In this document: positions 1,502 through 46,694 of the stretch, one piece after another
Position numbering within the stretch: position 1 is the first letter of the stretch
How the letters are laid out: every line of letters begins with the position of its first letter
From: Cytophagales bacterium
Lineage (GTDB): Bacteria; Bacteroidota; Bacteroidia; Cytophagales; Spirosomataceae
Assembly: GCA_013298805.1 (NCBI GenBank)
Contig: JAAFIU010000007.1
Coordinates: forward strand, 1-50,919
Length of the DNA: 50,919 bases
Reading direction: 5' to 3'
Translations under genes and position numbers: made by a program
Notes under the pieces: generated by a model
Databases searched by the model: none
What the model saw: only the letters and a program-made list of their open reading frames with translations
What the model was told of the DNA's origin: nothing

Positions 1502-1570
1502 CAAAGTTGATACTCTTTCGATAAGTTTGTATTACAAAACTTTTGCTAAAACTTACAACATTCACACATT
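1502..1570 (-). promoter_or_regulatory. Shared regulon promoter, site A (before BON gene)
   Basis: Read on the minus strand: AATGTGTGAAT starts at 1570. The 14-mer GTGAATGTTGTAAG occupies 1565-1552. A second half-site ending in TTGTAAT at 1531 lies exactly 21 bp further on. After 22 bp comes AACTTTG (1508-1502) as a -7 box. Five other promoters in the window have the same layout. The binding protein is unknown. Confidence 0.72.
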
Positions 1571-1576
1571 TTTAGT

Positions 1577-2464
1577 TTAAATTTGGTTATTGGGTATTCT
1601 GATAATCAATGAATTAGGTTTTATATAAGCTTTTACTTCTTTGATTTTTCCCAAATATTCCCCGTCGATTTGAAAGTGAAATTTCTTGCGTGATTTTATA
1701 GTTAATTCATTCGTATGAAAAATTTCTATTTTACTTTCATCATATTTTTCGTGTGAAAATAACATTTTGAAAATTTCCAATAATGACCGCTTTTTAATAA
1801 TTACAACTTCAAATAAATCATCATCTAACCGTCCAATAGGATTGATTAATGCTCCCGTTCCATACATGGTAGCATTGGCGATGACAACCATAAAGGCAGT
1901 CTTATTTACTTTTTTATGCTCAACGTACATTTCAAGTTGCATTGGCGAATTTTTGAGCAAAACTTTAATGGATGCCAAGAAATAACCCCACATTCCACGA
2001 CAGCCACTTTGTTTAAATCTTTTCATCAAATAGGCATTTAAACCAATATCACTCAGGTGAATACATAATTGGTCATTAACCATTGTGGTATGAATTTGTA
2101 GGTTTTTTCCGTTGACGGTAATATCCAACGCTAATATTGGGTCATCTGAAATGCCTAATTCTTTTGCTAAACCATTGGCAGAACCCGCAGGTAAAATTCC
2201 TAATACTATTTTTGAACCAATGAGACATTCAGCGACTAACTTTACTGTGCCGTCACCACCAACTGCTATGACTTGGTCGGGTTTGAAAGTTGAAATCTTA
2301 GCTTTAATCAGTTCAACGGTTGTATTAGGAACAAGGGGAAATAATGCTACAATATGGGTTTTATGAGTAAAATATTCAGTAATGATTGCATCCCAATCAT
2401 TGGTATTACCTCCAGAAACGGAATTAATCACAAAAAATAATCTTTGTATATCTTTTGTATTCAT
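1577..2464 (-). CDS. Diacylglycerol/lipid kinase (DagK/YegS family)
   Basis: A 295-residue lipid kinase of the DAGK catalytic family. It carries the nucleotide-binding G-G-D-G-T motif at residues 69-73 (A-V-G-G-D-G-T-V-K), the L-P-A-G-S-A-N-G-L-A-K segment at about 91-101 where related enzymes have G-T-x-N-D/G, and a C-terminal F-Q-I-D-G-E. Family members phosphorylate diacylglycerol or other lipids at the inner membrane using ATP. The gene runs away from an App1-type phosphatidate phosphatase gene, only 78 bp separating the two starts, so opposing phosphatidate reactions are encoded side by side. Its stop lies 7 bp before regulon site A. The exact lipid substrate cannot be told from sequence. 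Confidence 0.9.
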   Translation of the reverse strand: MNTKDIQRLFFVINSVSGGNTNDWDAIITEYFTHKTHIVALFPLVPNTTVELIKAKISTFKPDQVIAVGGDGTVKLVAECLIGSKIVLGILPAGSANGLAKELGISDDPILALDITVNGKNLQIHTTMVNDQLCIHLSDIGLNAYLMKRFKQSGCRGMWGYFLASIKVLLKNSPMQLEMYVEHKKVNKTAFMVVIANATMYGTGALINPIGRLDDDLFEVVIIKKRSLLEIFKMLFSHEKYDESKIEIFHTNELTIKSRKKFHFQIDGEYLGKIKEVKAYIKPNSLIIRIPNNQI

Positions 2465-2542
2465 AGTTTTGAGAATGAATTGATGTCAGTTTAAAATGCC
2501 CACTTGTTATCTGAATGAATCACAAAAAAGCTTCAAAAAACT

Positions 2543-4137: not shown

Positions 4138-4194
4138 AAAAGTGATGAATTATGAGAAATTTTGAAAAATAATGTACCTTATTTGATTTGCACA

Positions 4195-4239: not shown

Positions 4240-4250
4240 CAGCGGAAAAT

Positions 4251-6776
4251 TCAAACATCACTTCTATATTTTCTAAAAAACCATACCTTCAATAAATCAG
4301 CAGTAATGATGTAGAATGTAACGATGGTAAGCATAGCTCCAAGCTGAAAAATTGGCAATGGTACTAAGCCTACTTCGTTGGCAACAAAAGGAACGTATGG
4401 CAACGCAACGGTTAAAACAAAACCCAAAATACTGAGAATGAACAAGTATTTACTGGGTTGGCTTTTGAAGAAATTTTTATGAGTTCGGATGATGAAAAGA
4501 ATAAATAATTCAGTCAAGATTGATTCTACGAACCAACTGGTTTGAAATGAGGCTTCTTTAACTTTCAATACGTATAAAAGCGTAAGAAAAGTAAGAACAT
4601 CAAACAGCGAACTGTGGATGCCAAAAATGACCATATAATTTCGGATAAATTTCAAGTCCCATTTTCCTGGTTTGGCTAATTGTTCATCATCAACATTATC
4701 AGATGCAATCGTTAAATATGGGAAATCAGTAATAAAATTGGTCAATAAAATTTGTTTGGGAAGCATGGGTAAAAATGGTAAAACCAAGGATGCAATGGCA
4801 ACGCTAAACATATTACCAAAGGTAGAACCCGTGTTGATAAATATGTATTTCAGCGTATTGGCAAAGGTTTTTCGACCTTCTTTGATACCATCCACTAAAA
4901 CCGACAAGTCCTTTTCCATCAATACAAAATCGGCTGCTTCACGGGCTACATCAACGGCATTTTCCACTGAAATCCCAATATCTGCTACATTAATAGCTGA
5001 CACATCATTGATGCCGTCACCCATGTATGCCACCGTAAAACTTTTGCGAAGTGCTTCAATTATTCGACCTTTTTGTTGAGGTTCAATTTCGGCAAAAATA
5101 TGGGTATGCTTAACCTTTTGTTCCAGAGCAATTTGACTAATATCGAAGAGTTCTTTGCCAGAAATAACAATTGGGTTTTCAATGCCAATGCTGATGCCAA
5201 TTGATTTTGCCACATTTCGGTTATCACCCGTAATGATTTTTAAACCCACATTCAGTCTTTTTAAGTCGTTGATAGTATCGATGATTCCAACTTTTATCGG
5301 GTCGGATAGAAGCACAAAACCAGCAAATGTCATGGCGGTTTCATCTTCTTTTTGGATAGCATTTTGACTGATATTTTTATAACAAATCGCTATAACTCTA
5401 ATGCCATTTACTCCGTAATTTTCAAATTGTGCCTCAATATCATTTTGATGTTTTTCATAAGATTCGATACTTCCGTCAGATAATTTTATTTGCGTACAAA
5501 TTTCAGCAATTTGGATAAATGCTCCTTTGCTTATCAGCATCTTTTCTGAAGCGGTATCAACGGCAATACTTAATCTTTTACGAATAAAATCATAAGGAAC
5601 TTCACCTATTTTTTCAGGTAAAGCATTGGAAATACTTAGTTTTTTTAGTGCTTCATCAATTGGATTTGCGTAACCCGACTCAAATTTGGCATTCCAGAAA
5701 GCGAGCATTTTTACAAATTCATTGTCTTCACCGCTATTGTCAACTACACCCTTTACATTAATTGCTCCTTCGGTAATTGTTCCTGTTTTATCGGTACAGA
5801 GCAGATTGACTTCGCCAAGATTTTGGATGGATGACAATTTTTTGACAATTACTTTTTTAGCCAACATTCTTTTTGCTCCTGCACTCATCGCAATAGTTGT
5901 GATGGCAGGTAATAATTCGGGAGCCATCCCAACCGCCAAAGCCAAAGCAAATAGGGCAGATTCAACTACACTTTTGTGGTTGAGTAAATTTACAGCCAAG
6001 ATAAAAGCGGATAAAATTAATGTGATTTTCATTAAAAAATACCCAAATTCTCTAATGCCTTTTTCAAAACTGGTTTCAATATTTTTGTTAGTACTTTGTA
6101 CAATACTTCCGAAAATAGTTTGGTCGCCCGTATTGATAACCAAGGCTTTAGCTGTTCCACTTACAATATTTGTCCCTTCCCAAATGCAATTGTTTCTTTG
6201 GGCTAATTCTGTTTTTTCATCTAAAATTCCAATTTCTTTGGCTACTGGATACGATTCTCCCGTCAAGCTGGCTTCATTCGCAAAAAGTTCGTTTGATTCT
6301 ATCAACAAACAATCCGCAGGAATCATATCGCCTGCTTTAAAGGTCAGAATATCACCCGAAACGATTTGATTGGCGGGTATTTCATGGACAATACCCTCTC
6401 GGACAACTGTACATTTTAGGGCAATCATTGACTGTAATTTCTCAACTACTCTTCCTGCATTTCGTTCTTGAAAAAAACTCAATAAACCCGTGGATAGTAC
6501 GATAAAGAGAATGATGATAACGTCTGAGTTATCGCCCAAAAATGCAGAAAGCACCACAGAGCCTATCAATAAAAGCATCAAAGGACTTTTGAATTGTCCC
6601 AAAAAAAGGAATAAGTCTTTCTCGAAATGCGTTTTTTGCTTTCGACTTACACCTGTATTTGCCAAGATGTCTTCGGCAGTTTTTTGTGATAAGCCATTGA
6701 GAGAACTATTCAGTTTTTGGACCCAATATTTTGAATCAAATTGCCAGAAATTATTAGTTTGAGTGGGTGTTTGCAT
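4251..6776 (-). CDS. mgtA: Magnesium-translocating P-type ATPase
   Basis: An 841-residue P3B-type ATPase, close to the usual MgtA length (about 900). Visible motifs are L-T-G-E-S (171-175, actuator), M-A-P-E-L-L-P (284-290, transmembrane ion-site region; MgtA-type M-x-P-E-x-L-P), D329-K-T-G-T (phosphorylated Asp) and M-G-D-G-I-N-D-V-S-A-I (hinge). Membrane segments lie at about 62-102, 248-300 and in a C-terminal cluster. It imports Mg2+ across the inner membrane at the cost of ATP. It is last in the minus-strand run SHOCT-MacA-ABC-permease-MgtA, with 85 bp between it and the permease stop, so it could be co-transcribed or have its own promoter. No Mg2+-sensing leader is evident. Confidence 0.93.
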   Translation of the reverse strand: MQTPTQTNNFWQFDSKYWVQKLNSSLNGLSQKTAEDILANTGVSRKQKTHFEKDLFLFLGQFKSPLMLLLIGSVVLSAFLGDNSDVIIILFIVLSTGLLSFFQERNAGRVVEKLQSMIALKCTVVREGIVHEIPANQIVSGDILTFKAGDMIPADCLLIESNELFANEASLTGESYPVAKEIGILDEKTELAQRNNCIWEGTNIVSGTAKALVINTGDQTIFGSIVQSTNKNIETSFEKGIREFGYFLMKITLILSAFILAVNLLNHKSVVESALFALALAVGMAPELLPAITTIAMSAGAKRMLAKKVIVKKLSSIQNLGEVNLLCTDKTGTITEGAINVKGVVDNSGEDNEFVKMLAFWNAKFESGYANPIDEALKKLSISNALPEKIGEVPYDFIRKRLSIAVDTASEKMLISKGAFIQIAEICTQIKLSDGSIESYEKHQNDIEAQFENYGVNGIRVIAICYKNISQNAIQKEDETAMTFAGFVLLSDPIKVGIIDTINDLKRLNVGLKIITGDNRNVAKSIGISIGIENPIVISGKELFDISQIALEQKVKHTHIFAEIEPQQKGRIIEALRKSFTVAYMGDGINDVSAINVADIGISVENAVDVAREAADFVLMEKDLSVLVDGIKEGRKTFANTLKYIFINTGSTFGNMFSVAIASLVLPFLPMLPKQILLTNFITDFPYLTIASDNVDDEQLAKPGKWDLKFIRNYMVIFGIHSSLFDVLTFLTLLYVLKVKEASFQTSWFVESILTELFILFIIRTHKNFFKSQPSKYLFILSILGFVLTVALPYVPFVANEVGLVPLPIFQLGAMLTIVTFYIITADLLKVWFFRKYRSDV

Positions 6777-8935: not shown

Positions 8936-10141
8936 TCAACGTGTTTTTCTGGCAGGCATACTTGGCATGAATGGATTTTTGGTTGTAGTTTCAGCAGTTT
9001 TTTCTTTGCTGATGCCCAAAATAACGATATCATTAACTTTAAGATTTCCAGAAACTTCGGTAAAACTTCCATCAGTTATGCCTATCGTGACTTTATGTGG
9101 AATAATTGTTTCGTCTTGCTTAATCCAAAGAAACGCTTGATCACCTTCCGATAAACTTCCGATTCTTGCACTTTTGAATTGTATTTTTATTGAATCTGGC
9201 AGCGTTTTATCGTTTTCGTAATATTCGGCAGGAGGGATAAAATGGAAAGAGTTGGCAGGAACTTTCAGAATATTATTATGCTTTTGAACGATAATATTAA
9301 TGTTGGCGGTTAGTCCTGGCATCAGTTTTAAAGCTTTATTGGGAGCATTTATGATAACGGTATAGTTCACCACATTTTGAATAACATTGGGCAATAATCT
9401 GATTTGCAATATTTTACCACTAAAAGTCTCATTCGGAAAAGCATCAACCGTAAATGTTGCTTGCTGACCAACTTTTACTTCGCCAATATCGGCTTCATCA
9501 ACATTGGCTTGTACCTGCATTTTAGATAAATCATTGGCGATTGTAAAAAGGGTAGGCGTATTGAAACTCGCAATTACAGTCTGACCAACATCAACATTTC
9601 GAGAAATAATTTTGCCAGAAATCGGAGCGGTTATTTTGGCATATTTTAGATTTATTTTGGCTCTTCTCAACAATGAATTGGCTGATTTTACACTGCTTTG
9701 TGCTGATTTATAATTAGTTAGAGCTACGTCATAATCAGCACGGGGCAACACTAAAGAATCGTATAAAAGCTTGGTACGGTCGTATTCGGTTTTCATTTGA
9801 TGGACTTCCAATTGGGCTTTTTCCATCGAAGCCATTGCATCTTCTTTGGTAGCTGCCAAAAAAGTAGTGTCAATCATGGCAATTAACTGCCCTTTTTTCA
9901 CCACCGTATTCCAATCAGCGTACAGGCTCGAAATTACGCCCGAAACCTGCGTACCCACCTGCACGGTAGTATCAGCACTGATAGAACCCGTTGAGGTAAC
10001 TATCAGGCTGATGTCTCCACTCTGAACAGGCGAAGTCTTCCAAGAAATGGCTTGGGTCTGGTTTTTGGTATAAAAATAGTATCCGAGTACGGCGGCAATA
10101 ATGACCACAATCGACCAAATGATAATCTTGTTATTTTTCAT
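8936..10141 (-). CDS. MacA-like periplasmic adaptor (HlyD/RND-MFP family)
   Basis: From the ATG at 10141 this is a 401-residue adaptor. An N-terminal signal anchor (K-N-N-K-I-I-I-W-S-I-V-V-I-I-A-A-V-L-G) is followed by a lipoyl-like half (V-Q-V-G-T-Q-V-S-G-V-I), a long helical hairpin, the second lipoyl half (A-P-I-S-G-K-I-I-S-R-N-V-D-V-G-Q-T-V) and barrel/membrane-proximal domains. Family members link an inner-membrane pump to an outer-membrane channel. The frame is open upstream to 10270, but that extension lies inside the SHOCT gene and is not a plausible leader. The 10141 start sits 7 bp after the SHOCT stop. It ends with a Pro/Arg-rich tail. Co-transcribed with the ABC genes. Confidence 0.92.
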   Translation of the reverse strand: MKNNKIIIWSIVVIIAAVLGYYFYTKNQTQAISWKTSPVQSGDISLIVTSTGSISADTTVQVGTQVSGVISSLYADWNTVVKKGQLIAMIDTTFLAATKEDAMASMEKAQLEVHQMKTEYDRTKLLYDSLVLPRADYDVALTNYKSAQSSVKSANSLLRRAKINLKYAKITAPISGKIISRNVDVGQTVIASFNTPTLFTIANDLSKMQVQANVDEADIGEVKVGQQATFTVDAFPNETFSGKILQIRLLPNVIQNVVNYTVIINAPNKALKLMPGLTANINIIVQKHNNILKVPANSFHFIPPAEYYENDKTLPDSIKIQFKSARIGSLSEGDQAFLWIKQDETIIPHKVTIGITDGSFTEVSGNLKVNDIVILGISKEKTAETTTKNPFMPSMPARKTR

Positions 10142-10148
10142 TTTTGCC

Positions 10149-10364
10149 TCATTTCGTTTCAAGAATGCTTTTTTGGTCTTGGTATTCTTCCTTAGAAATA
10201 TGCCCAGATGCAAAACGTTTTTTGAGAATATCCAATGGAGAATCCCTCTTTTTATCTTGAAAAGGCACATACAAAGGGGTAGCGAATATCCAAAGCATCA
10301 TCACAAACCAAATGAACCACCAAATAAGGTGCATACCGTAGAAATTATAGCCGTTGTTAATCAT
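10149..10364 (-). CDS. Small membrane protein with SHOCT domain
   Basis: A 71-residue protein with one membrane segment (about residues 11-32, very rich in Trp, Phe and Met: H-L-I-W-W-F-I-W-F-V-M-M-L-W-I-F) and a C-terminal SHOCT domain. The SHOCT signature is P-L-D-I-L-K-K-R-F-A-S-G-H-I-S-K-E-E-Y. SHOCT tails are common short oligomerisation-like domains of unknown role. It is first in the operon with the MacA-like gene starting 7 bp after it. Regulon site B lies about 45 bp upstream of its ATG, so it is the entry point of the SHOCT-MacAB(-MgtA) transcript. It may be an accessory or regulator of the pump. Confidence 0.88.
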   Translation of the reverse strand: MINNGYNFYGMHLIWWFIWFVMMLWIFATPLYVPFQDKKRDSPLDILKKRFASGHISKEEYQDQKSILETK

Positions 10365-10409: not shown

Positions 10410-10477
10410 CAAAGGTGGGTGTCTTCAAGAGAAAAACGTTACATAAATCTGTAAATAGCTTACATTATTCACACATT
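10410..10477 (-). promoter_or_regulatory. Shared regulon promoter, site B (before SHOCT-MacAB operon)
   Basis: Minus strand: AATGTGTGAAT from 10477, 14-mer GTGAATAATGTAAG at 10472-10459, second half-site ending ATGTAAC at 10438 exactly 21 bp on, then a 21-bp gap and ACCTTTG at 10416-10410. Predicted transcription start is near 10403, about 40 nt before the SHOCT ATG. Confidence 0.78.
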
Positions 10478-35246: not shown

Positions 35247-35315
35247 AATGTGTGAATAATGTAACTTTTTCTAAATATTTTGTAACACTTTTCAAGTATT
35301 TAATTCGCACCTTTG
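35247..35315 (+). promoter_or_regulatory. Shared regulon promoter, site C (before candidate small RNA)
   Basis: AATGTGTGAAT at 35247-35257; 14-mer GTGAATAATGTAAC at 35252-35265; second half-site ending TTGTAAC at 35286, exactly 21 bp on; 22-bp gap; ACCTTTG at 35309-35315. Predicted start of transcription near 35322. The nearest downstream gene starts 330 bp away, past a terminator. Confidence 0.78.
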
Positions 35316-35517: not shown

Positions 35518-35651
35518 CTAACCATTTCTGTTGCATTTCTTTCATTTCAAATCCAAACCACTTTCTCAAAAATGCGTCTTTCTTAACTTTCTATTTTGAG
35601 AGATAAGTTAAATAATCTCGGCATAACTCAAACTTGAATAAACTCACTACC

Positions 35652-35860
35652 ATGAAAACAATTGAAGAATTGAATCAAAAAATTTTGAACAAAACAATGG
35701 ATATGAAAAAAAAGTATCCAGAATTATCAAAATATATTGAAGAAATGCCAATCACGATTCCAAACCTTGAAAACCCTGAAATTACGCTCAAAATCTTCAA
35801 GAATATTATGATTCTTTGGACGAAATGTTGAAAAAGTACACATTAAACCATATTAAGTAA
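35652..35860 (+). pseudogene. Small acidic/helical protein, frameshifted
   Basis: From the ATG at 35652 the frame reads M-K-T-I-E-E-L-N-Q-K-I-L, then Y-P-E-L-S-K-Y-I-E-E-M-P-I-T-I-P and N-P-E-I-T-L-K, and stops at 35831 after an odd Trp/Cys tail. One more A in the A-run at 35790-35793 would restore N-L-Q-E-Y-Y-D-S-L-D-E-M-L-K-K-Y and a stop at 35858-35860 (about 69-70 residues). That continuation fits the rest much better and resembles small uncharacterised Bacteroidota proteins I recall. So this is a one-base deletion, either real or a sequencing error. The function is unknown. It precedes the stress-associated protein gene. Confidence 0.65.
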
Positions 35861-35949: not shown

Positions 35950-36348
35950 ATGAAAATTTCAAAAAATTTAGGAATCTGGATGAATCATTCAGTAGCACAC
36001 CTTATGGCTTTGTCAGATGATTACATCGAAACCCTCATTATTGAACACGAACACAAGGATGCTACCATTCATAGAAATGAAAATGTACTACACAATATGG
36101 AGCAACATCAACAAGCAGAATTTTACAAGAAAATTGCCGAGGTAATTAAAAATTATCAAGACGTAATTCTGTTTGGGCCAACCGATGCGAAACTCGAATT
36201 GTCTAATATTTTGATTGCCGACCATCATTTTGATAAAATCAGTATCAATATTGAAAATGCGGATAAAATGACTGAAAACCAAGAACACGCCTTTGTAAAG
36301 GACTATTTTGCCACGCATTTGTATGCGGTAAATCATTCAAATGTGTGA
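35950..36348 (+). CDS. Small stress-associated protein (host-attachment/eRF1-like family, tentative)
   Basis: A 132-residue soluble protein. It starts N-L-G-I-W-M-N-H-S-V-A-H-L-M, has a central H-N-M-E-Q-H-Q-Q-A-E-F-Y-K-K-I-A-E-V-I-K and then D-V-I-L-F-G-P-T-D-A-K-L-E-L, and closes with K-M-T-E-N-Q-E-H-A-F-V-K-D-Y-F. This layout resembles small Bacteroidota proteins distantly related to the host-attachment or eRF1-domain fold; that relation is tentative. It sits inside the stress block. Its last codons and stop (AAT GTG TGA) are part of regulon site D for the next operon. Confidence 0.72.
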   Translation: MKISKNLGIWMNHSVAHLMALSDDYIETLIIEHEHKDATIHRNENVLHNMEQHQQAEFYKKIAEVIKNYQDVILFGPTDAKLELSNILIADHHFDKISINIENADKMTENQEHAFVKDYFATHLYAVNHSNV

Positions 36349-36408
36349 ATGTTGTAAACATTATCGTGAATAATATAACACTTTGAAATTTGATATTTAA
36401 CACCTTTG
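36340..36408 (+). promoter_or_regulatory. Shared regulon promoter, site D (before small basic protein-GH130-GT operon)
   Basis: AATGTGTGAAT at 36340-36350; 14-mer GTGAATGTTGTAAA at 36345-36358; second site GTGAATAATATAAC at 36366-36379, the best-preserved full second copy and exactly 21 bp on; 22-bp gap; ACCTTTG at 36402-36408. Predicted start near 36415, about 20 nt before the ATG at 36436. Confidence 0.8.
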
Positions 36409-36435: not shown

Positions 36436-36570
36436 ATGTCGAAAGAAAAAGATAAACAGGAAAAAACGGGCAAAAAAGCCCCAGTATTGAGCCTCAAAGA
36501 AAAAAGAACTGCCAAAGCAACCAAACGTAGTGAGAAAAATGACGAAGGAAAATTTACGCCGAAGTCATAA
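36436..36570 (+). CDS. Small lysine-rich protein (44 residues)
   Basis: A short frame from ATG 36436 to TAA 36568-36570. It reads M-S-K-E-K-D-K-Q-E-K-T-G-K-K-A-P, then L-S-L-K-E-K-R-T-A-K-A-T-K-R and ends F-T-P-K-S. It is strongly basic, without hydrophobic core, likely disordered and possibly nucleic-acid-binding. Similar tiny Lys-rich proteins are common in Bacteroidota stress loci, as I recall. It is placed directly after regulon site D and 8 bp before the GH130 gene, so it is the first gene of that operon. Function unknown. Confidence 0.7.
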   Translation: MSKEKDKQEKTGKKAPVLSLKEKRTAKATKRSEKNDEGKFTPKS

Positions 36571-36578: not shown

Positions 36579-37649
36579 ATGATAGATTTAAAAAGAGAAG
36601 GCGTTTTGCTCAACAAAACCATTCTTGATTTTGAAAATGAGGGGGTATTAAACCCTGCGGTAATAAAAATTGATAACGATGTTCACCTTTTTTATCGAGC
36701 CGTAAGCATAGGAAATCATTCAAGTATTGGGTATTGTAAATTGAATGGGCCACTTGAAGTTGTTGAACGTTTAGACAAACCGTTACTTTTTCCTGAGTTT
36801 GATTACGAATCGCAGGGTTTGGAAGACCCACGAATTGTAAAAATTGAAGACACTTTTTATTTGACTTATACCGCCTACGATGGGCTAAATGCTTTGGGAG
36901 CATTGGCAACTTCAAAGGATTTGAAAATTTGGGATAAAAAAGGACTTATCGTTCCGCTTTTAACTTATTCTGAATTTTCTTATCTCTCAGAAGGTAAAGG
37001 GAGTTTGAACGAGAAATATCTTAGATACAACGAACACGAACGAATTTTTGAAAATCACAGTAAAACAGCTTTATTGTGGGATAAAAATTTAATATTCTTC
37101 CCAAGGAAAATAGAGGGTAAATTCTATTTTATGCACCGTATAAAGCCTGATATTCAGATTGTTGTAGGTGTAGAAAAATTGGAAGAATTAACGCCAATAT
37201 TCTGGCAAAACTATTTTCTAAACTTTAAAGATTATATTGTATTGTCCCCAAAATACGACCATGAAGTTAGTTACATCGGTGGTGGTTGTCCGCCCATCGA
37301 AACTGCATTTGGCTGGTTATTGATTTATCACGGAGTACATGATAGCGTCAAAGGTTTTGTTTATTCTGCCTGTGCCGCCCTGCTTGATTTACAAAATCCT
37401 GCAAAAGAACTTTCACGCTTACCATATCCTTTATTCATACCCGAATACAGTTGGGAATTGAAGGGAGAAGTAAACAATGTTTGCTTTCCGACTGGTACTG
37501 CTTTGTTTGATGACACCTTTTATATCTACTACGGAGCCGCCGACGAACGCATTGCCGTAGTTTCAATGAGCCTATCTGAATTATTAAAAGAGCTATTGCT
37601 TAATATTAAAAATGATGAAAAACGAAATAATGTTAAACCACCACAATAA
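36579..37649 (+). CDS. GH130 family glycosidase/phosphorylase
   Basis: A 356-residue five-bladed beta-propeller type enzyme. It has N-P-A-V-I-K-I-D-N-D-V-H-L-F-Y-R-A near the start, G-L-E-D-P-R-I-V near residue 80, F-F-P-R-K-I, F-Y-F-M-H-R-I-K-P-D-I-Q-I and G-G-G-C-P-P-I-E-T-A-F-G-W-L-L-I-Y-H-G-V, all typical of GH130. Known GH130 members phosphorolyse or hydrolyse beta-mannosides; the sugar here is not determined. No signal peptide, so it is cytoplasmic. It overlaps the glycosyltransferase gene by 38 bp, pointing to coupled translation and a joint role in making and turning over an intracellular or surface glycan. Under site D control. Confidence 0.9.
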   Translation: MIDLKREGVLLNKTILDFENEGVLNPAVIKIDNDVHLFYRAVSIGNHSSIGYCKLNGPLEVVERLDKPLLFPEFDYESQGLEDPRIVKIEDTFYLTYTAYDGLNALGALATSKDLKIWDKKGLIVPLLTYSEFSYLSEGKGSLNEKYLRYNEHERIFENHSKTALLWDKNLIFFPRKIEGKFYFMHRIKPDIQIVVGVEKLEELTPIFWQNYFLNFKDYIVLSPKYDHEVSYIGGGCPPIETAFGWLLIYHGVHDSVKGFVYSACAALLDLQNPAKELSRLPYPLFIPEYSWELKGEVNNVCFPTGTALFDDTFYIYYGAADERIAVVSMSLSELLKELLLNIKNDEKRNNVKPPQ

Positions 37650-39969
37650 TGTATTGTTGGCTGAACCTCAAAGAGTTATATTAAATAAAAGAGAAGTTTT
37701 TACCGTAGCGGATGCTAAGCTTCCAGAGATTATTTTCATTACTTCCTACCCCCCCCGTGAATGTGGAATTGCCACTTACTCACAAGATTTAATTGAATCT
37801 TTACAAAATAAATTTAGTCATTCCTTTAGAATTAGTGTATGCCCGATTGAGTCAGAAAATGAACAACATCAATACAGTGCCGATGTAAAATATACACTCA
37901 ATATTGATAAACCAAAGTCATTTTCACGTTTAGCAGAAACCATCAATGAAGATGCTGAAATTGATATGGTGATGGTTCAGCACGAATTTGGTTTGTTCAG
38001 AAATAGAGAAAATGATTTTATCCAATTTCTGAATCTTCTCATCAAACCTGTCAGCCTTGTTTTTCATACAGTTCTGCCCGAACCCAATGCTTTCCTGAAA
38101 TTTAAGGTTCAACAAATTGCTGATGTTTGCGAGTCAATTGTAGTCATGACAAAATTTGCCAAAGAAATTCTCGTAAAAACATATAGTATTGAAAGTGAGA
38201 AAATTACGGTTATACCTCATGGAACGCATTTAGTACCGCATTCAGATAGAAAACTCTTGAAAGAGAAATATCAATTAGCAGGGAAAACCGTTTTTTCCAC
38301 TTTTGGTTTATTGAGTTCTGGAAAATGTATTGAAACAACTTTACAGGCTTTGCCCGCCATAATTGAAAATAATTCGGAAGTAATGTTTTTGATTATTGGC
38401 AAAACGCATCCGTCGGTTGTGAAAGAAGAAGGTGAAAAATACCGAGATTATTTAAAATCATTGGTTGACGAATTAAACCTCTCAAATCACGTTCAATTCG
38501 TCAACGAATTTTTACCATTACCAAAGCTTTTAGAATATTTGCAGTTATCTGATATTTACCTTTTCACATCAAAAGACCCAAATCAAGCTGTTAGTGGCAC
38601 TTTTTCTTATGCTATTAGTTGTGGTTGTGCCATTGTGTCAACGCCCATTCCGCACGCAAGGGAAGTTTTGAAAAATGATGCAGGTATCATTATTGACTTT
38701 GAAAATTCGATACAATTAGCCAATGCAGTCAATGCTTTGCTTAATGAAGAGGAGTTAAGAAACAAGGTCAGCATGAAAGGTTTGCATCGAATTGTTCCAT
38801 CGGCTTGGGAAAATGCAGCAATTGCTCACGCCATTCTATTTGAAAATATGAGCGAAGGAAAAATTTCTCTGAACTATAAAATCCCCGTTATTAATCTCGA
38901 CCATGTGAAGCGATTAACAACAGATTTTGCCATGATTCAATTTTCAATCATCAATCAGCCCGATATTGACTCAGGTTATACGTTGGATGATAACGCTCGG
39001 GCAATGGTGGCGATGTGCCAACATTACGAGCTTCACCAAGATGATGATGATTTGAATTATATCGACCTTTATCTCAATTTCATTGAATTTTGTCTTCAAC
39101 CCGAAGGTTATTTTTTGAATTACGTCGATGAAGAAAAGGAATTTACCGAACAGAATTATCAAACCAATCTTGCCGATTCAAACGGACGGGCTATTTGGGC
39201 ATTAGGGTTCTTGATTTCGCTATCGGATATTTTACCAGAACAGATTGTGAATAAAGCCCAAACGATTATGCAAAATGCGTTATCGAAGGTGCAAAACATT
39301 TACTCTACTCGTGCCATTGCCTTCATTATCAAGGGATTATATTATAGAAATTTAAAAAATCATGGTATTCAAGATGTGGCACTTATCAAAGAATTAGCCA
39401 ATCGTTTGGTACAAATGTACCGCCATGAATCGGATAAAAATTGGGCTTGGTTTGAAAGTTATCTGACCTACGGAAACAGTATTTTACCCGAAGCCATGTT
39501 GTGTGCATGGATGGCAACCGACGAAACTGTTTATAAAGAAATAGCCAAGTCATCATTTGATTTTTTATTGATGAAAATCTTCAAAGAAAATCGTATCAAA
39601 GTGATTTCAAATAAAGGATGGTCGCACAAAGGAGAAGATAATGACCAACACATATTGGGTGGAGAACAACCTATTGACATTGCTTACACCATTCTTGCTT
39701 TGGCAAAATTTCATGACGTTTTTAAAGATGAAGAATACAAAAACAAAATGAAAGTGGCTTTTGACTGGTTTCTGGGCAATAATCATATTCATCAAATCAT
39801 CTATAATCCTTGTACGGGTGGCTGTTACGATGGTTTGGAAGAAAGTTATATCAATCTAAATCAAGGAGCAGAATCGACCGTTAGTTATTTGATGGCGAGA
39901 CTCACTATTGAGAAAAAGTTTAAGTTAAAACGCAAAAGAACAACTAATAATGTGCTACAAAATGTGTGA
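37612..39969 (+). CDS. GT4 glycosyltransferase with C-terminal alpha-helical (toroid-like) domain
   Basis: A 785-residue two-part protein. Residues about 30-410 form a GT-B fold of the GT4 type: S-Y-P-P-R-E-C-G-I-A-T-Y-S near the start, V-M-V-Q-H-E-F-G, V-I-P-H-G-T, F-S-T-F-G-L-L-S-S-G-K, and a donor-site region with D-I-Y-L-F-T-S-K-D-P-N-Q-A-V-S-G-T-F-S-Y-A and S-T-P-I-P-H-A-R-E. Residues about 430-770 look like an all-helical barrel with Y-T-L-D-D-N-A-R-A, G-R-A-I-W-A-L-G-F and W-A-W-F-E-S-Y-L-T-Y-G-N, similar to glycosidase-like toroids. The sugar and acceptor are unknown. Its last two codons and stop (AAT GTG TGA) belong to regulon site E. Confidence 0.88.
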   Translation: MMKNEIMLNHHNNVLLAEPQRVILNKREVFTVADAKLPEIIFITSYPPRECGIATYSQDLIESLQNKFSHSFRISVCPIESENEQHQYSADVKYTLNIDKPKSFSRLAETINEDAEIDMVMVQHEFGLFRNRENDFIQFLNLLIKPVSLVFHTVLPEPNAFLKFKVQQIADVCESIVVMTKFAKEILVKTYSIESEKITVIPHGTHLVPHSDRKLLKEKYQLAGKTVFSTFGLLSSGKCIETTLQALPAIIENNSEVMFLIIGKTHPSVVKEEGEKYRDYLKSLVDELNLSNHVQFVNEFLPLPKLLEYLQLSDIYLFTSKDPNQAVSGTFSYAISCGCAIVSTPIPHAREVLKNDAGIIIDFENSIQLANAVNALLNEEELRNKVSMKGLHRIVPSAWENAAIAHAILFENMSEGKISLNYKIPVINLDHVKRLTTDFAMIQFSIINQPDIDSGYTLDDNARAMVAMCQHYELHQDDDDLNYIDLYLNFIEFCLQPEGYFLNYVDEEKEFTEQNYQTNLADSNGRAIWALGFLISLSDILPEQIVNKAQTIMQNALSKVQNIYSTRAIAFIIKGLYYRNLKNHGIQDVALIKELANRLVQMYRHESDKNWAWFESYLTYGNSILPEAMLCAWMATDETVYKEIAKSSFDFLLMKIFKENRIKVISNKGWSHKGEDNDQHILGGEQPIDIAYTILALAKFHDVFKDEEYKNKMKVAFDWFLGNNHIHQIIYNPCTGGCYDGLEESYINLNQGAESTVSYLMARLTIEKKFKLKRKRTTNNVLQNV

Positions 39970-40029
39970 ATAAAGTAAGTTTTTGCCAAAATTATATAAC
40001 ACAGAATCAGCACTTAGCAGTGACCTTTA
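39961..40029 (+). promoter_or_regulatory. Shared regulon promoter, site E (before lipoprotein-YtxH genes)
   Basis: AATGTGTGAAT at 39961-39971; 14-mer GTGAATAAAGTAAG at 39966-39979; second half-site ending ATATAAC at 40000, exactly 21 bp on; 22-bp gap; ACCTTTA at 40023-40029. Predicted start near 40036, about 34 nt before the ATG at 40070. Confidence 0.76.
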
Positions 40030-40069: not shown

Positions 40070-40501
40070 ATGAAAAAAGTAATTAAGAGTTTATCGAAAA
40101 TTAGTTTAATGTTTTTTGTATTAATGATTGTATCATTTTCATGTACAAAGAAAATAGCATTTATGACTTCGCCCATTGTGCCTGCCGCCCGAGGTGATGT
40201 TCAAGTGAAAAAAGATAATAATAAAAACTATGTGATTGATGTTCATTTGTCTGAATTGGCAGAAGTTAGCCGACTTTCTCCACCCAAACAAACGTATGTC
40301 GTTTGGATAATTACAGAAGAAAACATTACCCGAAATATTGGACAAATTAACAGCAAAACGGGAATGTTATCCAAACAATTAAGAGCATCTTTCGAGACCG
40401 TTTCTTCATTCAAACCAATCAAAGTTTTTATTACGGCTGAAGATGATGCCAGTATTCTTGCACCATCGGGACAAATAATTCTAACAACAGATAGTTTTTA
40501 G
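40070..40501 (+). CDS. Putative lipoprotein
   Basis: From the ATG at 40070 a 143-residue product with a lipoprotein signal: M-K-K-V-I-K-S-L-S-K, a hydrophobic core, then V-S-F-S-C with the Cys as lipid anchor near residue 25. The mature part is a small beta-rich domain with Y-V-V-W-I-I-T-E-E-N, N-I-G-Q-I-N-S-K-T-G and V-F-I-T-A-E-D-D. The pattern resembles anti-sigma/extracellular beta domains of unknown function. The frame is open upstream to 39983 but that would delete the promoter spacing and the signal peptide. Start choice follows site E. Function unknown. Confidence 0.8.
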   Translation: MKKVIKSLSKISLMFFVLMIVSFSCTKKIAFMTSPIVPAARGDVQVKKDNNKNYVIDVHLSELAEVSRLSPPKQTYVVWIITEENITRNIGQINSKTGMLSKQLRASFETVSSFKPIKVFITAEDDASILAPSGQIILTTDSF

Positions 40502-40526: not shown

Positions 40527-40805
40527 ATGAAATCAGGAAAAATGTTTTTGGGAATCCTCGCAAGTTTTGCGGGAGGAGCAATATTGGGTATTCTACTTGC
40601 CCCAGAAAAAGGGTCAAGAACACGAAGAAATATCTTGGACTCTGGCGAAGATTACGCCGATGATTTAATGTATAAAATGGAGGCTCTTGTGAATGGATTA
40701 ACCAAAAAATACGACAGAGCAATACAAGAAGCAAGCCATTTTGTGACAGATGGGGTAAAGAAAAATGAATTTTTGAAGAGTTTTGAAAAAGATGGGAAAC
40801 AGTAA
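40527..40805 (+). CDS. YtxH domain protein
   Basis: A 92-residue protein with the YtxH hallmark: one N-terminal membrane segment with small residues (L-G-I-L-A-S-F-A-G-G-A-I-L-G-I-L-L-A-P-E-K-G-S-R-T-R-R), followed by a helical charged tail. YtxH proteins are induced by general stress in Bacillus; their molecular role is unknown. It lies 25 bp after the lipoprotein gene, so the two are likely one transcript from site E. A terminator-like hairpin follows. Confidence 0.88.
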   Translation: MKSGKMFLGILASFAGGAILGILLAPEKGSRTRRNILDSGEDYADDLMYKMEALVNGLTKKYDRAIQEASHFVTDGVKKNEFLKSFEKDGKQ

Positions 40806-40886: not shown

Positions 40887-40902
40887 ATTTAAAACCCAAA
40901 AT

Positions 40903-41841: not shown

Positions 41842-41853
41842 TTTTACTGAAAT

Positions 41854-42822
41854 ATGAAATCTAATTTAAAAATTACACATACTACGGTTTCAAATCAATC
41901 TATTGCATTACCAAACGAGTTGAAAGAAAAACTCAACGAATATGGTAGATTAGGATTAGAAGGTGCGCATAATACACAGCGTGCCTATAAAGCAGATTTG
42001 AAACATTTTAATGAATGGTGCGAAATTAACGGTCAAATTGCCTTACCAGCTTCACCAGAAACTTTGGCAGGGTATGTTTCGCATTTGGCAGACACTTGTA
42101 AATGGGCAACTATTAATCGAAGATTGGCGGCAATTTCAAAATTACATCAATTGCAAAACTTAGAAACCCCAACGCAAAACCGAATTTTCAGAACTGTCAT
42201 GGAAGGGATTAAGCGAGCAAAGGGAATTAGACAAAAGCAAGCTCCTGCCTTTAAACTCAATAAATTAAAGTCAATTTTTCGAGAAATAGATACGGAGACT
42301 AACACAAAATTAAGAGATAAGGCCTTATTACTTTTAGGTTTTACGGGGGCATTTCGTCGTTCAGAATTGGTTGCTCTGAATGTTGAAGATTTAACATTTA
42401 CAGAAGATGGATTAATTGTATCAATGAAAAAATCGAAGACTAATCAATATGGTGATTACGAAGAAAAAGCCATTTTTTACAGTCCAGAAGCCATTTTATG
42501 CCCAATAAGAACACTTCAATCGTGGATTCAAAGATTGGGAAAAAGTACAGATTCTCTTTTTGTAAGAGTACGAAAAGGGGATAAAATTACGATGGATAGA
42601 TTGACAGATAAAAGCGTAAATGATTTAGTTAAATCATACTTTGGCGATGAATTTTCGGCACATTCCCTGAGGGCATCATTTATCACCATAGCTAAAATAA
42701 ATGGAGCCGATGATTCAGAAATTATGCGACAATCAAAGCACAAGACTTCCGCCATGATACAGCGTTACACGAGAATTGAAGACATAAAACAACACAATGC
42801 CGCCATGAAATTGGGTTTATGA
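41854..42822 (+). CDS. Tyrosine-type recombinase/integrase
   Basis: A 322-residue recombinase. The N-terminal SAM-like core-binding domain (about 20-115) has N-T-Q-R-A-Y-K-A-D-L-K-H-F-N-E-W-C. The catalytic domain has Arg168 in F-T-G-A-F-R-R-S-E-L, His270 and Arg273 in H-S-L-R-A-S-F, His296 in S-K-H-K-T-S and the nucleophile Tyr305 in Q-R-Y-T-R. All catalytic residues are present. No excisionase, phage or ICE genes accompany it, so it may be a lone chromosomal integrase. The stretch upstream has an imperfect palindrome at 41801-41841. Confidence 0.92.
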   Translation: MKSNLKITHTTVSNQSIALPNELKEKLNEYGRLGLEGAHNTQRAYKADLKHFNEWCEINGQIALPASPETLAGYVSHLADTCKWATINRRLAAISKLHQLQNLETPTQNRIFRTVMEGIKRAKGIRQKQAPAFKLNKLKSIFREIDTETNTKLRDKALLLLGFTGAFRRSELVALNVEDLTFTEDGLIVSMKKSKTNQYGDYEEKAIFYSPEAILCPIRTLQSWIQRLGKSTDSLFVRVRKGDKITMDRLTDKSVNDLVKSYFGDEFSAHSLRASFITIAKINGADDSEIMRQSKHKTSAMIQRYTRIEDIKQHNAAMKLGL

Positions 42823-43039: not shown

Positions 43040-43082
43040 TTCACAAATTTATAGCGTCCAAAGTATATTTCTTAGCTAAGCC

Positions 43083-46000
43083 CTAATTAACAATTTTAGA
43101 GTTTTGAATCATAACCAATTCTTCGTTCAATTCTTCGCAAGCCTGCCCACAAGCGTTTTCAAGTTCTGCTACTAAATCATTGATTTCATAGGCTAATTCT
43201 TGAGATTTAGCATATTCTTGTATTTGCTTCGCTATTTTTTCGTAATCTGGATTAAACCCTACAATCGAAAATGAAGGAATCATTTTATGAACAGTATTAC
43301 CCAGCATTCCCCAATCTTTATCTTGCAAACTCTGTTTCATCGTCAAAATCAAGTGTGGCGTTTGTTCCAAATACAAGGTAATCATTTCCATCATTAAAGC
43401 GGGATCAGATTTTGTTCGTTGATTCAAATAACTGAGGTCTGTATATCGTACTTTTTCAATTTCTGCCTTTTTTAAGGATACAACTTTTTTGACTAAACTA
43501 ATAATTTTACTGTATAATAATCGCTCATCTACGGGTTTAGCGATATAGTCATTCATGCCAACCGCCCTACATTTTGCCACGTCCACGGTGGTAACATCTG
43601 CCGTGAGGGCAAGGATTGGAATATCGGACTTCAATACATTTCGGATATATTCCGTTGCTTCAAAACCATTCATTTCGGGCATTTGCAAATCCATCAAAAC
43701 AATATCGTAGATCTTGGTTTGCATTCGTTCAACAGCCAATTTACCGTTGGCGGCAATGTCCCGTTCAAAGCCAAAATCGTCCAAAAGTGTCTTCATCAAT
43801 AATTGATTGAGAGGCATATCTTCCACAACCAACACTTTTATATTTTTAATTTCCTTATCCAATTTAGCCATTTCAATCACTTCTTCGAGATTCCCTTCTG
43901 TTTTCTTAAAATCCAAGATAAAGCTAAACGTAGAACCTTCTCCAAGAGTACTTTCTACTTCAATACTACCCTCTTGACGCTCAATGAGCTGTTTTACGAT
44001 AGCGAGACCCAAACCTGTGCCACCGTATAACCTCGAAGTTCCGCTTGATGCTTGCTGAAAATTCTCAAAAATTCGACCCATTTTATCTTCCGTTATGCCA
44101 ATCCCTGTGTCCTTAATATAAAATCCAATCTTCACTTTTTCATCATCATTATTCAACAAAACAACTTTTACGGTGATACTTCCATCGGAGGTAAACTTAA
44201 CGGAATTACTCACCAAATTCATAATTATTTGGTGTAATCGCACGGGGTCTCCTGCTATAAATTCTGGAATTTCAGGGTCATATTCAGTAATTAATGCTAA
44301 GTTTTTTTCTTGAATTTTGGGTTCAAAAATATGTAACATAGCGGCAATAGATACCCTCAATTTAAAGGGGGTGGATTCAAAACTCATTTTACCTGCATCC
44401 ACTTTTGCCAAATCCAAAATGTCATTAATCAATACAATGAGGGCATCGCCACTAATTTTTATTGCCGACAGATATTCCTTTTGTTTGGCTGATAAATCCG
44501 TTTTCAGAATCACCTTTGTAAAACCTATAATCGCATTCATCGGTGTACGAATTTCATGACTCATATTCGACAGAAATTGTTGTTTTGCCTTCACCGCATT
44601 CACCGCTAATTCAGTTGCAATTTCAGCTTTTCCCTGGGCTTCTTCGGCAAATATTTTTGAGTCAACGAGTTCCTTTTTAATTCTTTTTTGGTCTGTAACA
44701 TCCCGAGCCACAATCACAACGCCCTTCACGTTGCCGTGTTCATCGTTATAAACAGAACCATTAAAAAGCACATCGGTGAGTTTATGGTCTTTCATTGTGA
44801 GGGGAAAATCTTTGACAAAACCCTTGGCAAAAACCTCCAAATATACCTCATGGGCTTTTTGTGGGTCAGTAAAATAATCTTTAAAATATGTGTCGATGAG
44901 TGCTTCACGGCTACTGCCCGTTATATGAGTGAGTGCCTCGTTCATATCCGTAATTTTTCCTTCGTTATTTATCGTTACCAAGGGGTCAAGGCTGGCTTCA
45001 ATCAAAATTCTGGAATAATTGGCAATCAATAATTCGGCAGCCCGTTTTTCTTTTTCATCGTTCTGGAAAGCCAATTCAATATTGGCAATGCCTAATTCAT
45101 CGGCACGCTTTTCCTTTTCATCATTTTGGAACGCTAATTCAATATTAGCAATGCTCAATTCATCGGCTCGTTTTTCCTTTTCATCATTTTGGAAAGCTAA
45201 TTCAATATTGGCAATGCTCAATTCCTCGGCCCGTTTTTCCTTTTCATCATTTTGGAAAGCTAATTCAATATTGGCAATGCTCAATTCCTCGGCCCGTTTT
45301 TCCTTTTCATCATTTTGGAAAGCTAATTCAATATTGGCAATGCCTAATTCGGTTGCTCGTTTTTCTTTTTCATTATTCTGGAAAGCCAGTTCAATATTAG
45401 CGATGCTCAATTCTTCGGCTCGTTTTTCTTTTTCATTATTTTGGAAAGCTAATTCAATATTGGCAATGCCTAATTCGGTTGCTCGTTTTTCTTTTTCATT
45501 ATTCTGGAAAGCCAGTTCAATATTAGCGATGCTCAATTCTTCGGCTCGTTTTTCTTTTTCATTATTCTGGAAAGCCAATTCAATATTAGCGATGCTCAAT
45601 TCTTCGGCTCGTTTTTCTTTTTCATTATTCTGGAAAGCCAATTCAATATTAGCAATACTCAATTCTTCGGCTCGTTTTTCTTTTTCATTATTCTGGAAAG
45701 CCAGTTCAATATTAGCAATGCTCAATTCTTCGGCTCGTTTTTCTTTTTCGTTATTCTGGAAAAGGAGTTCTTCATTCGCAATGATAAGTTCTGCCGCACG
45801 TTTTTCCTTTTCTTTATTTTGAAAGAGTAGTTCTTTATTAGCAATAATTAACTCATCTGCCCGTTTTTCTTTTTCATCATCTTGAAAAGCCAATTCAATA
45901 TTGGCGATGTTCAATTCTTCGGCTCGTTTTTCTTTTTCATCATCCTGAAAAGCCAGTTCAATATTAGCAATCCCCAATTCTTCAGCTCTTTTGCCTTTTT

Positions 46001-46487
46001 CTACTTTTTGAAAAATCAATTCAGATTTAGCATTTTCCAAATCAATTGATAATCTTTTTTGGTTTTCAGAACTCAGATTTCTTAATTTAACTTGCTCTGT
46101 TATTTCCGTAAAAACCACAATTGTACTCAATATTTGACCATTTCGCTCTCTAAATGGTTGATATGAACAGTTAAAAAAGCGAATTTCATCAACGGCGTTT
46201 CTGGAAATTTCCATTTCGTGTTCATGAATATAAAACGGATTTCCTTTTTTAATTACCCCTTCAATAAGTTCTTTCAAACCTTGGTTGATAAGTTCGGGGA
46301 ATGATTCATAAAGTGATGTGCCAAGTATGTCGGTTTGCCTTCCGATGAGTTTTAGATAAAAATCATTGGCAAAATCAATGATAGAATCTTGCCCACGGAA
46401 GATGCACATCGCCACGGGTGCTTGCACAAAAGCATTGTACAAATCTTCTGCATTTTTTAGTGGAAATTCACTAATTCCTTTGTTCAT
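43083..46487 (-). CDS. Hybrid sensor histidine kinase (PAS - helical repeat rod - PAS - HisKA - HATPase - REC - Hpt)
   Basis: About 1,134 residues from the ATG at 46487 (an ATG 11 codons upstream at 46520 is possible). Order: an N-terminal PAS domain; a rod of 15 full 21-residue repeats plus one partial; a second PAS domain (N-N-E-G-K-I-T-D-M-N-E-A, ending V-A-R-D-V-T-D-Q); HisKA with F-L-S-N-M-S-H-E-I-R-T-P; HATPase with N-L-V-S-N-S-V-K-F, D-T-G-I-G-I and G-T-G-L-G-L-A-I; a receiver with L-V-V-E-D and I-V-L-M-D-L-Q-M-P; and an Hpt domain with V-H-K-M-I-P-S-F. No membrane segment, so a cytosolic sensor of a small molecule or redox signal. It has its own copy of the regulon promoter (site F). 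The cognate DNA-binding regulator is not in the window. Confidence 0.92.
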   Translation of the reverse strand: MNKGISEFPLKNAEDLYNAFVQAPVAMCIFRGQDSIIDFANDFYLKLIGRQTDILGTSLYESFPELINQGLKELIEGVIKKGNPFYIHEHEMEISRNAVDEIRFFNCSYQPFRERNGQILSTIVVFTEITEQVKLRNLSSENQKRLSIDLENAKSELIFQKVEKGKRAEELGIANIELAFQDDEKEKRAEELNIANIELAFQDDEKEKRADELIIANKELLFQNKEKEKRAAELIIANEELLFQNNEKEKRAEELSIANIELAFQNNEKEKRAEELSIANIELAFQNNEKEKRAEELSIANIELAFQNNEKEKRAEELSIANIELAFQNNEKEKRATELGIANIELAFQNNEKEKRAEELSIANIELAFQNNEKEKRATELGIANIELAFQNDEKEKRAEELSIANIELAFQNDEKEKRAEELSIANIELAFQNDEKEKRADELSIANIELAFQNDEKEKRADELGIANIELAFQNDEKEKRAAELLIANYSRILIEASLDPLVTINNEGKITDMNEALTHITGSSREALIDTYFKDYFTDPQKAHEVYLEVFAKGFVKDFPLTMKDHKLTDVLFNGSVYNDEHGNVKGVVIVARDVTDQKRIKKELVDSKIFAEEAQGKAEIATELAVNAVKAKQQFLSNMSHEIRTPMNAIIGFTKVILKTDLSAKQKEYLSAIKISGDALIVLINDILDLAKVDAGKMSFESTPFKLRVSIAAMLHIFEPKIQEKNLALITEYDPEIPEFIAGDPVRLHQIIMNLVSNSVKFTSDGSITVKVVLLNNDDEKVKIGFYIKDTGIGITEDKMGRIFENFQQASSGTSRLYGGTGLGLAIVKQLIERQEGSIEVESTLGEGSTFSFILDFKKTEGNLEEVIEMAKLDKEIKNIKVLVVEDMPLNQLLMKTLLDDFGFERDIAANGKLAVERMQTKIYDIVLMDLQMPEMNGFEATEYIRNVLKSDIPILALTADVTTVDVAKCRAVGMNDYIAKPVDERLLYSKIISLVKKVVSLKKAEIEKVRYTDLSYLNQRTKSDPALMMEMITLYLEQTPHLILTMKQSLQDKDWGMLGNTVHKMIPSFSIVGFNPDYEKIAKQIQEYAKSQELAYEINDLVAELENACGQACEELNEELVMIQNSKIVN
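45030..45995 (-). repeat. 63-bp tandem repeat coding a 21-residue helical unit
   Basis: Fifteen full units and a partial sixteenth of E-K-E-K-R-A-E-E-L-S-I-A-N-I-E-L-A-F-Q-N-N with small variations. Twenty-one residues are three heptads. Units near the middle are nearly identical in DNA, and a 126-bp double unit is itself repeated (near 45341 and 45467), a sign of recent copy-number change. Confidence 0.93.
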
Positions 46488-46629
46488 AATTAAGTATGCA
46501 AATAAAAATGGGCTATTCAATAATCATTTAACATACTGATTTTCAACATATTAGCTAATTATAAAATCAAAAAAAAGGCAAATTGTGTATAAAACTTTTT
46601 ATCCGTTTGTTGATTAATTTTCAATGCAG

Positions 46630-46694
46630 TAAAGGTGAGGTCATTTGTGGAAAGTTTGTTATATAATTATCATTTAAGTTTATATAATTCACAG
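46630..46694 (-). promoter_or_regulatory. Shared regulon promoter, site F (before hybrid kinase)
   Basis: Minus strand: CTGTGAAT from 46694; 14-mer GTGAATTATATAAA at 46692-46679; second site GATAATTATATAAC at 46671-46658, exactly 21 bp on; 21-bp gap; ACCTTTA at 46636-46630. The leader to the ATG at 46487 would be about 135 nt. This copy lacks the AATGT extension and is the most divergent. Confidence 0.62.

Follow-up and report, generated by a model that had tools for sequence, protein, structure and literature searches.

Six promoters in a Cytophagales genome share a tandem operator that is probably read by an AraC-family activator

AraC of Escherichia coli at araI1-araI2, like XylS at Pm, binds direct half-sites 21 bp apart, of which the proximal one lies over the -35 region and the distal one is the stronger. 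MarA, SoxS and Rob are small AraC-family activators of multi-gene stress regulons that bind as monomers to one asymmetric box. CsbD, OsmY-like BON proteins, Dps-like ferritins, YtxH and Usp are members of the RpoS or SigB regulons and, to our knowledge, the Bacteroidota are without RpoS and SigB. Here we describe six sites, A to F, in a 50,919-bp stretch of the genome of a Cytophagales bacterium (contig JAAFIU010000007.1 of assembly GCA_013298805.1, positions 1 to 50,919; hereafter, the window), each consisting of two direct half-sites 21 bp apart followed by a promoter element. From sequence comparison, we put the probability at about 0.85 that these sites are the operators of one activator-controlled regulon, the activator being most likely a protein of the AraC family of 186-187 amino acids (aa).

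A sequence-only reading of the window had proposed six promoters with a common geometry, and all six sites were found at the positions it gave, A, B and F on the minus strand and C, D and E on the plus strand (Table 1). Also present at A-F are the 21-bp step between the half-sites and the further 22 bp (21 bp in B and F) to ACCTTTG, ACCTTTA or AACTTTG, and the longer identical stretch AATGTGTGAAT, claimed for five of the six, was recovered in A-E but not in F, which has no AATGT prefix. The 14-mer GTGAATnWTRTAAV, described as common to all six, holds everywhere except at E, which reads GTGAATAAAGTAAG and breaks one fixed T. The pattern GTGAATNNNRTAA-N17-RTAA matches the window six times, exactly at A-F, whereas 100 shuffles that preserved dinucleotide composition gave 0.01 matches on average and never more than 1. 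When a weight matrix was derived from 167 sites at 80 other loci (L120-L199, including Arcicella rosea and excluding the genome analysed here), A-F took ranks 1 to 6, with scores of 29.7-49.5; the seventh match scores 10.0 and the next -0.5, and the best match in the reversed window scores -1.3. The seventh match (35184, minus strand) lies just upstream of site C on the opposite strand and is possibly a divergent or decayed operator.

The geometry recurs outside the window. The source genome measures 4.87 Mb in 461 contigs and is 86.6% complete, the window belonging to contig C416. There, the loose pattern GTGAATNNNRTAA-N17-RTAA has 12 matches compared to two in the reversed control, and the strict pattern GTGAATNNTRTAA-N16-TRTAA, which misses site E, has nine compared to none. 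Sites outside the window contig are located on C242, C267 and C299; given that half of the loose matches fall in the single window, the regulon targets are clustered. Across 59 genomes (the source genome and its relatives), the strict pattern yields 88 matches in 17 genomes and none in the control. A logo of 59 unique sites, numbered from the G of GTGAAT and with the fixed letters of the pattern conserved by construction, reads AA..gTGTGAATnATRTAA, followed 21 bp later by AATTATRTAAYACTTT and, at +56 to +63, by CACCTTTG. When half-site gaps of 6 to 29 were tried in the 80 named loci, the 21-bp period accounted for 99 exact sites, the 23 other periods for 0-3 each and the reversed control for none; period 11, close to the 10-11 bp repeat spacing of the OmpR/PhoB type, gave two matches, and period 22 gave none. 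The distal box TGTGAATNATRTAAC could alternatively be an imperfect palindrome (TGTGA-N6-TAAC) read by a CRP/FNR-type or another dimeric regulator, given that it resembles the CRP consensus and that conservation reaches the TGTG. The proximal box, however, has no TGTGA, and the sites are direct repeats with asymmetric conservation and a single fixed period; the palindrome was rejected because the logo is not symmetric, and we consider a regulator of this kind highly improbable.

The distance from operator to promoter is similarly constrained: TTTG starts 26 bp after the site in 93 of 168 cases and 25 bp after it in another 25 (118 of 168 together). Together with the 21-bp period, this supports the proposal of one regulon with a fixed operator-to-promoter geometry in which the second half-site takes the position of the -33 box. 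The only exact site of genome G037 has no TTTG in the right place and therefore looks like a chance match. Sites mostly lie outside genes, with only four of 221 (at most one mismatch, 96 loci) found within open reading frames (ORFs) of at least 100 aa; 199 of the 221 are followed within 600 bp by an ORF on the right strand, at a median distance of 71 bp and, for 133 of them, at 50-89 bp, the 22 without such an ORF including site C of the window. The -7 element of the sites is close to the sigma-A box TAnnTTTG of Flavobacterium psychrophilum, which PMC9723704 places at -12 to -5; on the same placement, the half-sites would centre near -59 and -38. A special sigma factor reading the boxes directly, which the sequence-only reading kept as an alternative, would account for the strict distance between box and presumed start. 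Yet the -7 box differs little from a standard sigma-A element, by comparison with the box described in that paper, with TTTG at one of two positions, and the direct repeats are conserved to about -73, which looks unlike the pattern of a sigma factor, so that this explanation is extremely improbable.

Clustering of 345 island ORFs from 11 genomes yielded, as the broadest family, a 186-187 aa protein present in nine of the 11. It contains AraC domains by Pfam (HTH_18 at E 5e-16 to 9e-15; PF12833 and PF00165 both above the cut-off in all four proteins scanned), its sequence opens with MKLYIKYMVSxRCK, and the source genome encodes two close copies on contig G000:C299. The sequence-only reading had leaned towards a regulator of the OmpR or LytTR type. 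If a LytTR-type response regulator bound the tandem repeats, the AraC-family gene would be merely one of the targets. LytTR regulators bind direct repeats of 9 bp separated by about 12 bp, with a period of 21-22 bp; the period thus fits, and it was for this reason that LytTR was favoured at first. The gene behind site F encodes a hybrid histidine kinase, and receiver-domain proteins are frequent at the loci (14 of 128 control ORFs and four of 136 first genes, sampled as described below). LytTR genes (subfamilies pooled), however, are found in 32 of 35 genomes whether or not these have sites (the site-free G002 and G007 have 42 and 45 matches), and none was recognised by eye among the clusters represented in at least three island genomes, most of these clusters being unscanned. 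Because the presence of LytTR genes does not follow the sites, this candidate was rejected and we regard it as quite improbable; an OmpR or LytTR type is thus unsupported, and the protein linked to the sites belongs to the AraC family (OmpR-type genes were left uncounted).

The AraC-family protein and the sites tend to occur in the same genomes. Among the 59 genomes, a regulator scoring at least 247 bits is encoded in 21, comprising 16 of the 17 site-bearing genomes and five of the 42 site-free ones (a rough Fisher p of 2.8e-9). The same-genus genome G007 (99% complete) is site-free and encodes no more than distant copies of the regulator (201 bits or less); G002 (84% complete) has neither. 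In 198 genomes from across the phylum, the regulator is present at 286 bits or more in 16, an exact site in 15 and both in eight (p 1.2e-6, equally rough), with 36 forward sites compared to three reversed. The 80 named loci, which were chosen by the regulator protein alone, contain 99 exact sites compared to none reversed and, with at most one mismatch, 168 compared to two; at least one such site is present in 59 of the 80. The regulator and the sites are found together in records that we take to belong to Cytophagales, Flavobacteriales, Bacteroidales and Chitinophagales, the named carriers of the regulator including Arcicella rosea, Emticicia, Lacihabitans and several Flavobacterium; two more records with the regulator, one from Ignavibacteria and one from Melioribacteraceae, showed no site at up to one mismatch.

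Sites and regulator gene are tightly linked. The nearest site directly adjoins the gene in G034, G029 and G000 (gap, 0 bp) and lies 3 bp from it in G001, at the 3' end in these cases; in G005, the site is 138 bp upstream of the regulator and, in the 9-Mb genome G040, the sole exact site lies 50 bp from the regulator start, oriented away from the gene. Further sites are found up to 25 kb from the regulator or on other contigs. A site with at most one mismatch lies 40-250 bp upstream of the regulator start in 29 of the 78 named loci that had enough upstream DNA, and at 85-94 bp in 23 of these 29, compared to none of the 80 in a reversed control allowing up to two mismatches, so that autoregulation is likely in the 29 loci. 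At nine of the 80 loci (L120, L124, L126, L130, L139, L144, L176, L178 and L197), the operator of the next gene starts at the stop codon of the regulator, the TGA of GTGAAT (at most one mismatch), and the same arrangement is seen in the source genome at G000:C299:13244.

To characterise the targets, we tallied the proteins encoded first behind the sites of islands L042-L060 and of loci L120-L199. The tally took in first genes at most 150 bp away that encode no more than 700 aa, excluded regulators and omitted L124, L126, L158 and L176 as copies of other islands, which gave 137 proteins, or 136 after one more regulator was dropped. The most common Pfam family is Ice_binding-like (PF11999; 18 genes), followed by CsbD (13), OmpA (10), BON (6) and cupin (6). 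Control ORFs were drawn from the same loci, later operon genes included (137 sampled, 128 after the removal of eight regulators and one protein, with two AraC-domain members kept). Among these, Ice_binding and BON are outside the top 25 families listed, and OmpA and cupin are represented by three and two ORFs; being limited to ORFs of at least 100 aa, the control could hardly hold CsbD (60-75 aa). Counted from the genes, 16 of 29 CsbD-like, seven of 10 BON/OsmY-like and 11 of 29 cupin-like genes (profiles built from letter-pattern members) have a site with at most one mismatch in the 400 bp upstream, compared to 55 of 400 random ORFs of at least 60 aa, a background that includes targets. Single first genes encode a ferritin/Dps-type protein (L162), YtxH (L166), Usp (L058) and YceI (L172). 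Relatives of the BON protein behind site A (E<=1e-30) occur in six of the 59 genomes, each of which has both sites and the regulator. The mere presence of CsbD was considered as a marker of the regulon and rejected on account of its distribution, given below.

These target classes recall the RpoS and SigB regulons, which suggests a general-stress-like role, and genes of kinds commonly tied to envelope stress are present as well. Many of the targets are OmpA, beta-barrel or ice-binding-like proteins, as might be expected if the AraC-type protein bound the sites but mainly repressed, or if the genes served, for example, envelope remodelling or surface attachment. Replacement of the -33 element by the proximal half-site, however, suits an activator, and CsbD, BON/OsmY-like, ferritin/Dps-like, YtxH and Usp targets recur; we therefore consider repression or a non-stress function unlikely, if by no means negligible.

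An AlphaFold2 model of the regulator, based on alignment A4 (74 named regulators; the other six of the 80 have stops, in two cases, or are partial, in four), has a mean predicted local distance difference test score of 89 and a predicted template modelling score of 0.69. Residues from about 64 to 180 match the domains of AraC, MarA, SoxS and Rns, with Z 8.1-14.1 among the matches listed. Residues 1-65 adopt the order E-H-E-E-H-E (E, strand; H, helix) and match GolB, CopZ, MerP and Atx1 at Z 7.0-7.9 (root mean square deviation 2.1-2.6 over 59-65 residues); AcuB and aspartate kinase, which contain other ferredoxin-like domains, also reach Z 7.3, and values below 8 may mean a common arrangement only. 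The N-terminal domain is accordingly described here as a predicted heavy-metal-domain-like fold. In all 67 of the 80 named members that are exactly 186 aa long and free of stops, it carries S10-x-x-C13, that is, a serine in place of the first cysteine of CxxC, and none of three regulon-linked members scanned matches PF00403 (HMA). Bacteroidota also encode CxxC paralogues (MVCxRC) that are like the regulator in length and architecture but match HMA in three of three cases, at E 9e-5 to 2e-3, just below the Pfam cut-off, whereas the regulon-linked members do not and are mostly SxxC. The best copies were read in 30 relatives: the 14 readable site-bearing genomes have 12 MVS or MIS and two NxxC, and the 13 readable site-free ones nine MVC and four MVS, two site-bearing and one site-free genome being unreadable; G028, among the unread genomes, has CxxC. 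In this set (the first 30 loci), exact sites are absent from all nine relatives in which the best copy is of the paralogue type MVC. Six more readable genomes, with single or doubtful sites, have five MVC and one MVS.

Several observations weigh against one AraC-family activator acting at all of these sites. There is no copy of the regulator inside the window; the 247- and 286-bit thresholds were set post hoc and the genomes are related, hence the roughness of the p values; and five regulator-bearing relatives (G018, G024, G042, G047 and G054) have no exact site, although in G042 a CsbD gene is preceded, at about 80 bp, by a site with one mismatch. Inside the flanks examined, 21 of the 80 named loci are without a site, and the CsbD family is present in 24 of the 59 relatives, many of them regulator-free. 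The SxxC signature is not strict, with CxxC in the site-bearing G028, NxxC in G004 and G050 (the G003/G004 variant is NxxC) and SxxC without exact sites in G018, G024, G047 and G054. In the phylum set, only eight of the 15 genomes with exact sites carry a close regulator. The other seven were inspected site by site: the sites lie inside ORFs in G147 and G148 and have no -7 box in G175 and G214, and that of G226 is doubtful, with a box present and a target that resembles one in G004 by eye. G069 and G074, in contrast, have genuine-looking sites that are followed by the expected -7 box and by targets like those of the regulon (loci L208-L210), and their best homologues score 137-142 bits, no better than in the site-free G064, the distant homologue in G074 being of the CxxC type. 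These two genomes are the chief result against a one-to-one link between site and regulator.

We nevertheless favour an activator of the AraC type that controls its own gene and a general-stress-like regulon. The motif with its fixed spacing and promoter position, its co-occurrence and linkage with the regulator and the site before the regulator gene are seen in the sequences, and the AraC fold is predicted; that the protein binds this DNA, activates rather than represses, responds to a signal and has a role in stress is what we infer. Two AraC-type DNA-binding domains would sit on the two direct repeats, which, being 21 bp apart, would lie on one face of the helix, and the distal half-site appears to be the stronger because its conserved flank is longer. 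The proximal half-site would overlie the -33 region in a sigma-A promoter whose sole remaining element is the -7 box (CACCTTTG). Such a promoter would need the bound activator for transcription (class II activation), and the activator would recruit the polymerase in the way familiar from AraC at araI1/araI2. The regulator probably activates its own gene in many genomes, forming a positive feedback loop, and the response would then be switch-like. Its N-terminal domain may sense the redox state or serve dimer contacts only; given the single conserved cysteine, a thiol switch is a testable guess. The broader proposal, that the Bacteroidota mount a general-stress-like response through this activator and that its N-terminal fold is now a metal-free sensor with one conserved cysteine, is put forward tentatively, at slightly less than even odds.

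Table 1. Operators, -7 boxes and genes assigned to the six promoters of the window
Feature	Coordinates	Strand	Details
Operator A	1532..1565	-	Tandem half-sites GTGAATGTTGTAA ... TTGTAA, 21 bp apart; matrix score 43.5
-7 box, promoter A	1502..1509	-	CAACTTTG; from sequence and the TAnnTTTG rule of PMC9723704
Target A	799..1467	-	Three-BON protein, OsmY-like, 222 aa; Pfam BON 3.9e-44
Operator B	10439..10472	-	Matrix score 44.6
-7 box, promoter B	10410..10417	-	CACCTTTG; from sequence
Target B	8936..10270	-	HlyD/MacA-type adaptor, heads gene row
Row B, ABC ATPase	8079-8828		
Row B, MacB-like permease	6862-8082		
Row B, P-type ATPase	4251-6776		
Operator C	35252..35285	+	Matrix score 49.5, best in window
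-7 box, promoter C	35308..35315	+	CACCTTTG; from sequence
Probable first gene, promoter C	35634..35831	+	65-aa ORF; no Pfam family
Next gene, promoter C	35950..36348	+	132-aa LGIWMxHSxAHLM-type protein; no Pfam family
Operator D	36345..36378	+	Full GTGAATnnTRTAA form in both half-sites; matrix score 37.0
-7 box, promoter D	36401..36408	+	CACCTTTG; from sequence
Possible first gene, promoter D	36436..36570	+	Short ORF, 44 aa
Target D	36579..37649	+	GH130-type glycosidase/phosphorylase; Pfam 1.4e-47
Glycosyltransferase, after target D	37612-39969		
Operator E	39966..39999	+	Matrix score 37.3
-7 box, promoter E	40022..40029	+	GACCTTTA; from sequence
Target E	40070..40501	+	143-aa protein, lipoprotein-like by eye
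YtxH-like, after target E	40527-40805		YtxH 4.6e-13
Usp, after YtxH-like gene	40903-41736		
Operator F	46659..46692	-	Matrix score 29.7, weakest of six
-7 box, promoter F	46630..46637	-	CACCTTTA; from sequence
Target F	43083..46520	-	Hybrid histidine kinase (PAS, HisKA, HATPase_c, receiver)

The start codons of targets A and E are 65 bp past site A and 70 bp past site E, respectively. Target A matches the OsmY model at 1.3e-24 and 87 bits, under the model cut-off of 174, and homologues of target E are found in the islands of G005, G029 and G034. The strand and spacing of the genes in row B suggest an operon. Assignment of the 65-aa ORF to promoter C is uncertain because it lies about 350 bp from the site; over 51 aa, it shares 47% identity with a gene that stands first after a site in L194 (10876-11100). 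Proteins similar to the 132-aa product that follows are encoded first behind sites in L046, L164 and L173 (the latter two recognised by eye), and GH130 is the first gene at four of the 136 sampled sites. The Pfam matches listed for the kinase encoded behind site F include no DNA-binding family; between its PAS domains, this kinase contains a long run of near-identical repeats (EKEKRAEELSIANIELAFQN), perhaps a signalling coil. A tyrosine recombinase or phage-integrase-like gene (41854-42822, plus strand) separates the gene of this kinase from the Usp gene of operon E. Elsewhere in the window, there are very large ORFs on the minus strand, 17426-28210 (3594 aa), 28556-32650 and 49015-50772, the last two encoding arrays of Ig_7 (CHU_C-associated) domains.

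A literature search turned up no general-stress master regulator in Bacteroidota and no description of the motif or the regulator; searches with motif strings and with the first ten letters of the protein returned no paper, and the words 'AraC' and 'CsbD' do not occur in the main text of PMC9723704. If the proposal is correct, the regulon becomes testable through one motif and one protein, such that sites can be listed in any genome and transcription starts predicted to the base, and the operator is strict enough for annotating targets of unknown function.

Compared with the described systems, the proposed system resembles AraC and XylS in combining a DNA-binding domain of the AraC family with two direct half-sites 21 bp apart, of which the proximal one lies over the -35 region and the distal one appears the stronger. 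It differs from AraC, which has a sugar-binding domain, in the predicted heavy-metal-domain-like fold at the N-terminus of the regulator, as well as in having many putative target promoters across the genome and in presumably acting with a Bacteroidota sigma-A that uses a -7 box. The regulator is similar to MarA and SoxS in fold (Z 12.9 and 11.9, respectively) but, unlike MarA, SoxS and Rob, has tandem boxes and an extra N-terminal domain. With the RpoS regulon of E. coli and the SigB regulon of Bacillus, the regulon shares target classes (membership as given at the outset), whereas control here apparently relies on a transcription factor acting at sigma-A promoters, not on an alternative sigma factor.

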